Under the pieces are notes generated by a model. It worked only from the letters and a program-made list of their open reading frames with translations. It had not been told where the DNA came from and did not search any database. From the NCBI GenBank assembly GCA_012719225.1, contig JAAYAT010000365.1:1-33953 (forward strand): DNA of 33,953 nucleotides, read 5' to 3'. Positions 2,339 to 33,953 of the stretch are shown piece by piece (positions within the stretch are counted from its first letter, which is position 1; each line of letters opens with the position of its first letter). The DNA is from Verrucomicrobiaceae bacterium. Its GTDB lineage: Bacteria > Verrucomicrobiota > Verrucomicrobiia > Verrucomicrobiales > DEV007. The position numbers and the translations under genes were made by a program.

Positions 2339-3037
2339 ATGAGCATCGGATTAATTGGAAAAAAAGTAGGCATGACCCGCATCTTCAACGACGAGGGTGT
2401 GGCTGTCGCTGTGACTGTCATCGACATCAGCGACAACGTTTTTGTCCAGAAGAAGACTGCGGAAAAGGATGGCTATACGGCCGTTCAGGTGGGATACGGC
2501 GAGCAGAAAGAATCGCGTCTCAATCGCGCCGAACTCGGTCATTTGAAGGCCAACGGAGGTGCCCCGAAGAAGAAAATTCTCGAGTTTCGTCTGGAAAACG
2601 ACGAGCAACTCCCGGAGGTGGACCATCCCGGTCTCGACCTTTTTGACGAAGGCCAGTGGGTTGACGTCATCGGCACGAGCAAAGGCAAGGGCTTCCAGGG
2701 GGTCATGCGACGCCACAACTTCGCCGGCCAGCCCCAGGCGCACGGCCACATGATGCACCGGCGTCCGGGTGGTGTCGGGGCCGGCACCGACCCCGGCCGC
2801 ATTTGGAAAGGCAAGGCGATGCCCGGTCGTCAGGGCAATGACCGCAAGACGATCCAGAATCTCAAAATCGTGCAGAAGCGCCCCGAGGACAATGTCATCC
2901 TCGTCAGCGGAGCGATTCCCGGCGCCAACGGCGGCTACGTCGTGATTCGCCCGGCGAAGAAAAAAGAAGGCCCCGTGCAAAATCTCAAGGCCGGAGCCGC
3001 CAAGGCCGCCGCAACGGAGGAGAGCGCTGAGGGCTGA
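2339..3037 (+). CDS. rplC: 50S ribosomal protein L3
   Basis: IGLIGKKVGMTRIF...KGKGFQGVMRRHNFAGQPQAHGHMMHRRPGGVGAGTDPGRIWKGKAMPGRQGN; upstream aaggaagga SD. Confidence 0.98.
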   Translation: MSIGLIGKKVGMTRIFNDEGVAVAVTVIDISDNVFVQKKTAEKDGYTAVQVGYGEQKESRLNRAELGHLKANGGAPKKKILEFRLENDEQLPEVDHPGLDLFDEGQWVDVIGTSKGKGFQGVMRRHNFAGQPQAHGHMMHRRPGGVGAGTDPGRIWKGKAMPGRQGNDRKTIQNLKIVQKRPEDNVILVSGAIPGANGGYVVIRPAKKKEGPVQNLKAGAAKAAATEESAEG

Positions 3038-3084
3038 CCCCGGCGAGACGGCACTCCCGAACTGATAGAAGGAATATTTACACC

Positions 3085-3702
3085 ATGGCAGCTAAGACTC
3101 TCAATCTCGAAGGCGCGAAGAGCGCGAGCATCACCCTCGTGGAAGATGCCGACCGCGGTCTCCAAGCCGTGCATGACGTCATCGTGGCGATGCATGCGAA
3201 CCGCCGCAGTGGCACCGCGCATACCAAAACCCGCGGGGAAGTGTCTGCGACGGGCAAGAAACCGTTCAAGCAAAAAGGAACCGGCCGCGCTCGTCAGGGC
3301 GGCAACGCTTCCCCCATCCACCGGGGGGGCGGAGTGGCTTTCGGTCCTCGTCATCGCGACTATTCGAAGAAGGTGAACCGGGCGACACGTCGTCTCGCGT
3401 TTGCCAAGGTGCTGACCGAGCGGATCGCCGATGAAGATGTGCTCACGGTGGCGGACTTCGCCATCGCCGACGGCAAGACCGCGAGTTTCGTGAAGGAAAT
3501 CAAGGGCCTCGCCGGGGAGGTGAAACGCGTCCTCATCATCGGCAACGACTTCAGCGAGGAGACCAAGAGGGCGGCGCGCAACTGCCAGTCCGCCCAGCTC
3601 GTCTCGGCCCACGAGGTCAACAGCGAGCAAATCCTTCATTACAGCAAGATCTTGGTGGTGGAATCTGCCCTCGAAACTCTCGCCGCACGGACCTCTCACT
3701 GA
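3085..3702 (+). CDS. rplD: 50S ribosomal protein L4
   Basis: RSGTAHTKTRGEVSATGKKPFKQKGTGRARQGGNASPIHRGGGVAFGP motif; operon position. Confidence 0.97.
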   Translation: MAAKTLNLEGAKSASITLVEDADRGLQAVHDVIVAMHANRRSGTAHTKTRGEVSATGKKPFKQKGTGRARQGGNASPIHRGGGVAFGPRHRDYSKKVNRATRRLAFAKVLTERIADEDVLTVADFAIADGKTASFVKEIKGLAGEVKRVLIIGNDFSEETKRAARNCQSAQLVSAHEVNSEQILHYSKILVVESALETLAARTSH

Positions 3703-4027: not shown

Positions 4028-4876
4028 ATGGGTTTAAAATCTTACAGACCAAACACACCGTCCAATCGGTATAAGCTGCTCCCCGACTTCGCCGAGGTGA
4101 CCGCCTCGAAGCCGGAGAAAAGCCTCTGCCGTCCCCTCAAGAAATCGGGTGGACGAAACAATCAGGGCCGTATCACCTGTCGTCACAAGGGCGGTGGTCA
4201 CAAACGCAAGTATCGTCTCATCGACTTCAAGCGCACCCGTCGCGACGAGGCGGCGAAGGTGGTATCCATTGAGTACGATCCCAATCGCACCGCCCGGATC
4301 GCTCTCATCGAGTATTCCGACGGCCAGCGTTCCTACATCATCGCTCCGAAGGGGCTGGAGGTGAACGCCGAGGTCTCCGCCGGAGAAAAGGCCCCGATCA
4401 AGCCGGGTTGTGCGCTCCCGCTGGGCAGCATCCTGACGGGTTCGACGATTCACAACGTGGAGCTGACCCCCGGCAAAGGCGGTCAGATCGCCCGCAGCGC
4501 CGGCCAGGGTTGCATCCTTTCCAACCGCGAAGGCAACTACGCCCTGGTCAAGCTTCCCTCGGGAGAGATCCGCAAGATCCACACGAGTTGTTACGCCAGC
4601 ATCGGCAGCGTCGGGAACGGCCAGCACGAGCAGGTCATCAGCGCCAAGGCGGGCCGCTCCCGCTGGCTCGGAATCCGTCCGACCGTCCGCGGGATGTGCA
4701 TGAACCCCGTCGATCACCCGAACGGTGGTGGTGAGGGCAAATCGAAATCGGGCGGTGGTCGTCAGCACCTCAAGAGCCCTTGGGGCCACGTCAAAGGACA
4801 GCGCACCCGGGAGAAATACAAGGGTAGTGACAAGTTCATCGTCGAGCGCCGCAAAGCGAAAAAGCGTCGTCGTTAA
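4028..4876 (+). CDS. rplB: 50S ribosomal protein L2
   Basis: [28 protein letters not shown]...[37 protein letters not shown]. Confidence 0.98.
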
Positions 4877-31135: not shown

Positions 31136-32314
31136 ATGGCAAACTCCTATATTTTCTCGTCCGAATCCGTAACCGAAGGTCATCCCGACAAAGTGTGTGA
31201 CACCATCTCCGACTCCATCGTCGATGCGTGCTTCGGGCAGGACACCGCCTCGCGGGTCGCCTGTGAAACCATGGTCAAAGACAACGTCGTGGTCCTCGGC
31301 GGCGAGGTCACCACCGGTGCGACCTTCGACTACCGCGAGGTCGTCAAGGACGCCATCGTCGAAATCGGCTACACCAACGACGACTGCAAATTCAACGCCG
31401 ATTCCTTTTTCCTGTTCAACGCGATCGGCCAGCAGTCCCCCGACATCGCCCAGGGCGTCGACGCCGCCGCCGCCGACGGGAAGGAAACCGCCGAGCAGGG
31501 TGCCGGTGACCAGGGCATTATGTTCGGGTATGCCGTGCGCGAGACGCCCTCCCTCATGCCCGCGCCGGTCGCCTATTCGCACCAACTCGGACGCGCCATC
31601 ACCGACCTCCGCAAGAGTGGCGCGCACACCTGGCTGCGCCCCGACTCCAAGACCCAGGTCTCGATGGAATACGTGGACGGGAAACCCACCCGCGTCACCG
31701 CGGTGGTGGTTTCGACCCAGCACGCCGCCAGCATCACCACTGCCGAGATTCGCGAGATCCTGAAAAAAGAACTCATCGAAGCCGTCATTCCCGGCGAACT
31801 CCTCACCCCGGAGACCGAATACCACATCAACCCCACCGGGCTGTTCATCATCGGCGGTCCCGAAGGAGACTGCGGGCTCACCGGACGCAAGATCATCGTC
31901 GATACCTACGGCGGCATGGGGCGGCACGGAGGGGGTGCCTTTTCCGGCAAGGACCCGAGCAAAGTGGACCGCTCCGCCGCCTACATGGCGCGTTACGTCG
32001 CCAAAAACGTCGTTGCCGCGGGCCTCGCGGACCGTTGCGAACTGCAACTCGCCTACGCCATCGGTTACCCCCAGCCCGTCAGCATCCACGTCGACACCTT
32101 CGGAACCAACCAGGTGGACGACGCCAAAATCATCAAGGCGATCCGCGAAACCTTCTCTTTCAAGCCCGCCGACTTCATTCGCGAGCTGAACCTGCTGCGC
32201 CCCATCTACCGCAAGACCACCAACTACGGACACTTCGGCCGCGAAGACGACACCGACGCCCTCACCTGGGAGAAAACGGATAAGGCTGAGGCGCTTCGTT
32301 CCGCGTGCGCCTGA
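31136..32314 (+). CDS. metK: S-adenosylmethionine synthetase
   Basis: [92 protein letters not shown]. Confidence 0.98.
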
Positions 32315-32323
32315 GTTTGCTAG

Positions 32324-32345
32324 AGTTCAGTTTTCAGTGTTCAGC
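32324..32345 (+). repeat. Left terminal array: three 7-nt units AGTTCAG TTTTCAG TGTTCAG + C
   Basis: Direct reading; 16-nt AGTTTTCAGTGTTCAG (32329-32344) is the exact reverse complement of 32751-32766. Confidence 0.9.
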
Positions 32346-32355
32346 GGGAACCGCG

Positions 32356-32754
32356 ATGGCCTTGCAGACATTCGAGGATTTGGAAGTCTGGAAACGCGGT
32401 TGTCGCCTCGCTGTCGAAGTCTGCGTCGAGTTCGACGAGTGCAAAAACTTCACCCTGAAAGATCAGGCGCAACGCTCCGCGATTTCCATCCCCTCGAACA
32501 TCGCGGAAGGATCCGAAAGAGGGTCCGATGCCGACTTCGTCCGCTTCCTTCGCTATTCCAAAGGCTCCTGCGCCGAACTGAGAACCCAGCTCTACATCGC
32601 CCGAAAAGCATCCAAAAGACTCAACCGCCCCAACCTGGACATTCCCGACGAACTCATCACGGAGACCCGTGAAATTTCAGCAATGCTCCGGGGACTCGTC
32701 AACTCCATCGAAAAAAGAAGGCACACCACGCCACAGCCCCAGGCTGAAAACTGA
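32356..32754 (+). CDS. Four-helix bundle protein (23S rRNA intervening-sequence protein family, PF05635/TIGR02436-like)
   Basis: FEDLEVWKRGCRLAVEVCVEF...FTLKDQAQRSAISIPSNIAEGSERGSDADFVRFLRYSKGSCAELRTQLYIARK: matches family signature (F.dL.vW...; S.p.NIAEG; GS..EL.tql.ia). Confidence 0.92.
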   Translation: MALQTFEDLEVWKRGCRLAVEVCVEFDECKNFTLKDQAQRSAISIPSNIAEGSERGSDADFVRFLRYSKGSCAELRTQLYIARKASKRLNRPNLDIPDELITETREISAMLRGLVNSIEKRRHTTPQPQAEN

Positions 32755-32764
32755 ACACTGAAAA
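32743..32764 (-). repeat. Right terminal array (inverted): on minus strand TTTTCAG TGTTCAG TTTTCAG + C
   Basis: Direct reading; overlaps the stop codon of the four-helix-bundle gene (TGA 32752-32754). Confidence 0.9.
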
Positions 32765-32776
32765 CTAGAACACTTT

Positions 32777-33953
32777 ATGAGCATCAAAGAAGACTACAAA
32801 GTGGCCGATATCGGTCTCGCCAATTTCGGGCGTATGGAAATCGAAGTGGCCCAGCACGAGATGCCCGGCCTCATGGCGACCCGCGCCAAATACGCGGCGG
32901 AAAAGCCGCTCCAGGGAGTCCGCGTGATGGGCTCCCTGCACATGACCATCCAGACCGCCGTCCTCATCGAGACCCTCGTGGAACTCGGGGCCGACGTGCG
33001 TTGGTGCAGTTGCAATATTTTCTCGACCCAGGACCACGCCGCCGCCGCGATCGCCGCCGCCGGGGTGCCCGTCTTCGCCTGGAAAGGGGAGACGTTGGAG
33101 GAATACTGGGACTGCACCGAAGCGGCCCTCACCTGGCCCGACGGCAAAGGACCGCAACTCATCGTCGATGACGGCGGCGACGCGACCCTCCTCATCCACA
33201 AAGGAGCCGAACTCGAGGAAGGGGATCGATCCTTCCTCGACAGCCCCTCCGAGAGCGAAGAGGAAGAAGTCATTAAAAACCTCCTCCGCCGCATTCACGA
33301 AGAGGACCCCGCCAAGTTCACCAATTTCCTCAAGGATTGGAAAGGCGTTTCCGAAGAGACCACCACCGGCGTCCACCGCCTCTACCAGATGGCCGCGGCC
33401 GGAACCCTCCGCGTCCCCGCGATCAACGTGAACGATTCTGTGACCAAGTCCAAATTCGACAACCTCTACGGCTGCCGCGAGTCGCTCGTCGACGGCATCA
33501 AGCGCGCCACCGACGTGATGATCGCCGGCAAGGTCGCCGTGGTCTGCGGCTACGGAGATGTCGGCAAGGGCTGCGCCCAGACCCTCCGCGGTTTCGGCGC
33601 CCAGGTCGTCGTCACCGAGATTGACCCCATCTGTGCCCTGCAGGCCGCGATGGAAGGCTACCGGGTTCTTCCCGTCGAGGACACCCTCGGCTGGGCCGAC
33701 ATCTACGTGACCACCACCGGTAACAAGGACATCATCCGCCTCGACCACATGCTCGCGATGAAAGATCAGGCTGTCGTCTGCAACATCGGCCATTTCGACA
33801 ACGAGATCCAAGTCGCCAAACTCAACGGCCACGCCGGGGTCAGCAAAACCACGATCAAACCCCAGGTGGACCGCTACGACCTGCCCGACGGCAAACAGCT
33901 CTTCATGCTGGCCGAAGGTCGCCTCGTCAACCTCGGCTGCGCCACCGGCCACC
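32777..33953 (+). CDS. ahcY: Adenosylhomocysteinase, 3'-truncated by window end (not in supplied ORF track)
   Basis: Hand translation [67 protein letters not shown]...[52 protein letters not shown]...[10 protein letters not shown]. Confidence 0.98.

Follow-up and report, generated by a model that had tools for sequence, protein, structure and literature searches.

Genes of the widespread family PF05635 are annotated as encoding a '23S rRNA-intervening sequence protein' or a 'four helix bundle protein', and tandem arrays of 7-nt units are familiar from cyanobacteria as STRR sequences. The closest described system to the locus presented here is the 23S rRNA intervening sequence (IVS) of Coxiella burnetii, an element of 428 nt with an S23p open reading frame and a 28-bp stem of terminal inverted repeats, in which tandem GACAGAT heptamers are found and RNase III cuts at the first repeat (PMC4990558). 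IVS elements replace the tetraloop of rRNA helices, and their excision by RNase III without ligation has been published for rRNA IVS only (PMC4990558). PF05635 inserts are also contained in the rRNA genes of CPR bacteria (PMC11270868), and the homology between this family and Avd has already been noted (PMC10053308). Regarding the repeats, the available part of a report on Xanthomonas heptamers counts 70 and 75 inverted pairs in two genomes and treats the repeats alone, with no link to an IVP gene (PMC4692102). A general rule by which PF05635 genes sit within inverted arrays was not found described in open-access full text.

The window analysed here, by which we mean the whole stretch of 33,953 nt from a Verrucomicrobiaceae bacterium, carries one such gene in a 449-nt cassette that lies in the gap between the co-transcribed genes metK, whose TGA stop codon ends at 32314, and ahcY, which starts at 32777. 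The features of the locus are the following:

31136..32314, forward strand: metK (S-adenosylmethionine synthetase), the upstream host gene, recognized by its ORF, its sequence and its orthologues in relatives
32315..32319, forward strand: GTTTG outer flank, common to the four filled metK-ahcY loci and part of an extended outer stem in one of them (G064)
32320..32345, forward strand: left arm, CTAG + AGTTCAG + TTTTCAG + TGTTCAG + C
32356..32754, forward strand: IVP gene, 132 aa, PF05635/TIGR02436, by family search, structure prediction and fold comparison
32743..32768, forward strand: right arm, G + CTGAAAA + CTGAACA + CTGAAAA + CTAG, containing the IVP stop codon
32777..33953, forward strand: ahcY (adenosylhomocysteinase), the downstream host gene, which runs off the contig

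The original prediction of a cassette of about 449 bp, with a single 132-aa gene of the IVS family between metK and ahcY, agrees with these coordinates and with the PF05635 match, and the 16-nt terminal inverted repeat that it described is indeed exact (32329-32344, AGTTTTCAGTGTTCAG; 32751-32766, CTGAACACTGAAAACT). Aligned in register, the two arms of 26 nt, each built of three 7-nt units, match at 22 of 26 positions; any inverted repeat of at least 12 nt was present in only 18 of 500 shuffles of the region. The RNA fold of the region pairs both arms (z = -3.5), and the TGA stop codon of the IVP gene (32752-32754) lies inside the right arm. The cassette was also said to lack a transposase, and none was matched in it, PF05635 being the sole family found there. 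CTAG, which had been taken as the outer bound and is itself palindromic, stands at both ends of the cassette in the window, but it is not conserved at the other filled metK-ahcY loci: G013 and G066 differ, and in G064 the outer stem continues through its position (AAAGTTTGCTAG/CTAGCAACCTTT). CTAG is neither a general boundary nor a proven target duplication.

The IVP protein matches PF05635 with 99 bits (cut-off 33.8), as well as TIGR02436/NF008912, and is predicted to form a four-helix bundle (AlphaFold2, mean pLDDT 93). The solved folds nearest to the model are those of the free-standing proteins XCC0516 (2GSC) and BT_0352 (2RLD), which share family and fold with IVP. More distant comes Avd of the diversity-generating retroelements (4DWL, 8UBE), with a Foldseek probability of 1.0, a TM of about 0.57-0.63 (best chains) and a sequence identity of about 12%. 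Even though the fold is the same, the window cassette differs from Avd systems in having no reverse transcriptase, and both RVT_1 matches of its own genome are on other contigs. With the Coxiella IVS, the cassette shares its size (428 v 449 nt), a single ORF of the PF05635 family, a long terminal-repeat stem and the tandem heptamers in that stem; contrary to it, the cassette lies between two protein-coding genes and not in an rRNA helix. Since the anatomy is that of an IVS and the location is not, we call it IVS-type and not an rRNA IVS. The heptamers of Xanthomonas and Nostoc, as far as the available part of their description goes, resemble the arms in being 7-nt tandem arrays and in forming inverted pairs (PMC4692102). 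In REPIN/RAYT systems, too, gene gaps contain short inverted repeats, which in some cases include a gene and in others do not, but there is no RAYT/HUH transposase inside the cassette, the Y1_Tnp matches of its own genome are on other contigs, with no RAYT adjacent to the cassette, and the repeats are locus-specific rather than one genome-wide family. IS elements and MITEs are different in that the cassette has no transposase and its terminal repeats are not common to the copies, arms of different loci rarely matching.

Inverted arms are the usual surroundings of PF05635 genes. Each of the four such genes in the window's own genome (G000) has inverted short-repeat arms, made of a different repeat in each case (AGCTTTT, AGTAGTA, GGTAAAA/GGTGGAA and TTTTCAG). 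For a larger sample, the upstream flank was compared with the reverse complement of the downstream flank, a score of at least 12 counting as a pass. Among 94 usable genes from this genome and its relatives within the order, 87 passed, against 4.6% of mismatched flanks of different loci, 0.4% of shuffled flanks and 9 of 94 in direct orientation; across many phyla, the test was passed by 64 of 78 loci (mismatched arms, 4.9%), clear arms being absent at the remaining 14. When the same loci were shifted by 0.9-1.1 kb, only 3.8% and 1.1% passed. The expectation that inverted arrays would flank other family members was thus borne out, whereas identical termini on every copy were not found, each clade having its own 7-8-nt repeat; a search with the CTAG/TTCAG pattern, as had been proposed, would therefore miss the general pattern. 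The commonest repeat period at the order-level loci is 7, followed by 8, and period-7 arrays are scarce elsewhere, with a single one in a 400-kb sample of the relative G064. G exceeds C in the left arm of 147 loci and falls below it in 7, so the direction of the repeat is fixed relative to the gene. None of 20 other IVP loci matched rRNA models. A phage collection searched with one query gave no IVP match, and viral contigs gave 14. In the own genome, a DNA search with a made-up 63-nt TTCAG array had no match, and one with a 14-nt pattern returned the window and a few gene-less arrays. These arrays (CTGAAAA, CCTAAAA, GGTTTTAA) are located at G000:C304:2244-2299 (L010-L016), G000:C204:4261 (L009) and G000:C87:1985 (L008); L016 has no inverted partner nearby, and L009 has a weak one.

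The cassettes are placed tightly between genes, with a median of 4 nt separating the upstream stop codon from the left arm and a median of 12.5 nt separating the right arm from the downstream start codon. Both neighbours are co-directional with the IVP gene at 85 of 129 loci, a count in which some antisense calls are erroneous owing to simple ORF calling; the phage and cyanobacterial plasmid cassettes are antisense to their operons. The occupied junctions are functionally unrelated to each other. On a Nostoc plasmid, the IVP gene lies between nrdB and nrdA, within GGGAGTA arms of the kind known from Nostoc heptamers. Just 3' of the cysD stop codon, several congeners (L291-L318) have a second short palindrome (e.g. 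AAAATCGCCGCGGGCGATTTTA), outside the IVP arms, whose own arms vary yet stay complementary.

The arms are locus-specific in their pairing, and left and right change in concert. This was followed in 84 loci at 20 gene junctions, each represented in at least two genomes and including cysD-cysN, nuoI-nuoJ, pheS-pheT, metK-ahcY, sdhA-sdhB, livG-livF, ilvB-ilvN, purC-purF and gmk-nadD, the gene names being given by sequence inspection and not by family search. Within a junction, the left arm scores 19.8 against its own right arm and 11.6 against those from other genomes (P about 1e-13 in a paired test over 84 loci that are not fully independent). At one Flavobacterium junction, for example, the arms are of the AGGTTCAA type in L177, L179 and L183 and of the GAGTAGCT type in L185 and L186, on both sides. 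Across junctions, repeats are alike only where protein identity is about 60% or higher. The wobble test gives no support for selection on a stem in the sense RNA, arm mismatches compatible with G-U pairing in that RNA being fewer (185 v 243), and DNA-level processes may therefore suffice for the complementarity. The idea that palindromy generally extends into host sequence beyond the arms was rejected, own comparisons giving 5.92 and cross comparisons 5.71 matches of 15, even though G064 and L286 individually do look palindromic there.

Regarding mobility, the original prediction held that the cassette is a mobile element, and this is partly supported. The metK-ahcY junction is filled in G000, G013, G064 and G066, and most readable congeners have short spacers there, so that, as had been anticipated, the junctions of congeners are mostly without the cassette. 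The spacer of G009 (L072) is 150 nt long, with CCCTGTTAGGTC inverted repeats in place of an IVP cassette. Outside this junction, the closest relatives by protein (L101, L139, L107) adjoin sucC or sucD, and their arms, similar in being of the TTCAG type, are TTTTCAG or GGTTCAG; the clade, together with its repeat, thus appears to have changed operon on at least one occasion. In phages, one site is filled in L285 and empty in its 81% relative L286, where the genes overlap as TAATG; no clear target-site duplication is seen in a comparison made at 81% identity only. At a second phage junction, a gap as long as a cassette, with arms that match, is present in six contigs, and L269 has a gene-less 214-nt heptamer hairpin. 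Gene gaps of this phage group (L269, L265, L268, L272) contain several unrelated hairpins, among them gene-less heptamer hairpins and one with a longer repeat, and the gap behaves as a hot spot. The discreteness of the cassette, its patchy presence, the empty phage site, the same clade in different operons and the in-frame intragenic insertions described below speak for mobility; against free mobility, the clades track junctions. At metK-ahcY, one and the same IVP clade is present in several families of the order, and 19 junction labels on the IVP tree require 22 changes, the minimum being 18; most copies therefore seem to be old and to have come by vertical descent, with losses. Such losses leave scars: at cysD-cysN, four congeners retain only an array resembling the right arm, and at purC-purF of Chryseobacterium, L355 and L363 retain the 3' tail of the IVP gene. 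Mostly one clade per junction and scarred losses indicate that movement is rare. Near-identical copies at different sites of one genome were absent among the collected loci, close pairs sharing the same junction.

Cassettes are also found inside coding genes. Two contigs of viral collections, detected irrespective of frame, have an IVP cassette inside dnaE2, encoding an error-prone DNA polymerase (L249:2859-3471), and inside the BREX gene pglX (L253, about 3000-3400), respectively; two further cassettes (L204, L036), detected by an open-frame search, are embedded in long frames that encode methyltransferase domains. The host frame of all four is open through the entire cassette, always as the -1 frame relative to IVP, a frame that is open in only 2 of 159 other cassettes; since L204 and L036 were picked for their open frame, the count of four is biased, and only L249 and L253 are unbiased. 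The host proteins of these two would have an insertion of about 150-200 residues. The search may miss frame-disrupting insertions, and a first screen for open frames on both sides was uninformative because the arms abut gene ends. The methyltransferase-like gene of L204 (61-3552) has further in-frame heptamer arrays (SQLSVTDNRKLITDN-type) outside the IVP cassette.

We consider it probable, at roughly two chances in three, that the cassette belongs to the IVS type of element and lies in an mRNA spacer as a rarely spreading and tolerated passenger whose transcript is cut at the stem and whose arms are renewed jointly. With two inverted 7-nt arrays enclosing the S23p/IVP gene, a long stem could form in the DNA as well as in the transcript and hold the gene in its loop. 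The element would spread rarely, as a selfish or neutral passenger, surviving only where little harm is done: at the tips of rRNA hairpins, as is known, and presumably in operon gaps and at in-frame positions. By analogy with the action of RNase III in rRNA, the metK-ahcY message would be expected to be cut at the stem. The concerted change of the arms would most simply result from slippage and from copying one arm from the other, by template switching between inverted repeats, as in quasi-palindrome correction, with selection on the stem as a possible further contributor. The Avd-like protein probably binds the stem or aids the movement of the element.

A different account, in which the cassette is a domesticated intercistronic regulator whose stem-loop separates or tunes two operon genes and which is kept as useful at its junction, would fit the long persistence of about one clade per junction, as with the single clade at metK-ahcY in several families, and the predominance of co-directional neighbours (85 of 129). 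It would also fit purC-purF of Chryseobacterium (L341-L370), where most gene-less spacers fold into hairpins too. We nonetheless find it unlikely, since the cassette is absent at metK-ahcY in most congeners and at cysD-cysN in many, the junctions have no function in common, and some copies are antisense or lie inside dnaE2 and pglX. Somewhat less likely again is mobilization in trans, in which a hairpin-specific host transposase (Y1/RAYT type) or a reverse transcriptase would move a non-autonomous element and IVP would be its passenger or helper. The own genome does have 5 Y1_Tnp and 2 RVT_1 matches, and the fold of IVP is that of Avd, a helper of diversity-generating retroelements (PMC10053308), but none of these matches shares a contig with any of the four IVP genes, no 7-nt arrays border the ones whose flanks are readable, and the repeats vary by locus, unlike ends recognised by one transposase.

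The reverse order of events, where inverted heptamer hairpins arise in gene gaps by replication slippage and template switching and IVP genes either end up in their loops by chance or need them, appears very improbable to us. Gene-less 7-nt hairpins do occur at the second phage junction in L269, beyond the following gene in L265, and at purC-purF, and the arms turn over fast; however, nearly every IVP gene has inverted arms, whereas 400 kb of a relative has one period-7 array, and no periodic arrays accompany the reverse transcriptase genes or the Y1 transposase genes with readable flanks of the own genome.

Returning to the passenger element, locus-specific inverted heptamer arrays that usually enclose PF05635 genes amount to an anatomical rule for the whole family, which ties its free-standing genes to rRNA IVS elements and offers an origin for some heptamer repeats. 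Three questions become testable with it, namely the mechanism by which IVS elements move, their possible cleavage from mRNAs and the binding target of the protein. Since the same layout recurs in many phyla, and on chromosomes, plasmids and phages, rRNA intervening sequences seem to be a single branch within a far broader class of DNA elements. As a tentative and rather doubtful extension, PF05635 genes might mark bacteria-wide hairpin elements able to invade any transcript, be it rRNA, operon gap or coding frame, with ends renewed jointly by arm copying and an Avd-like protein acting on the hairpin; rRNA IVS, cyanobacterial heptamers and Xanthomonas inverted heptamers would then be one class. 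The dnaE2 and pglX copies with their open host frames are unexpected in themselves.

Two minor observations concern single groups of loci. The gene-less purC-purF spacers of Chryseobacterium measure 78-147 nt, and their hairpins have unrelated arm sequences, as if the junction retained a hairpin whether or not the IVP gene is present. In a KSB1 genome, two matches to the Acido-Lenti-1 sRNA lie near the IVP gene (L171:3489-3534 and 4062-4107).
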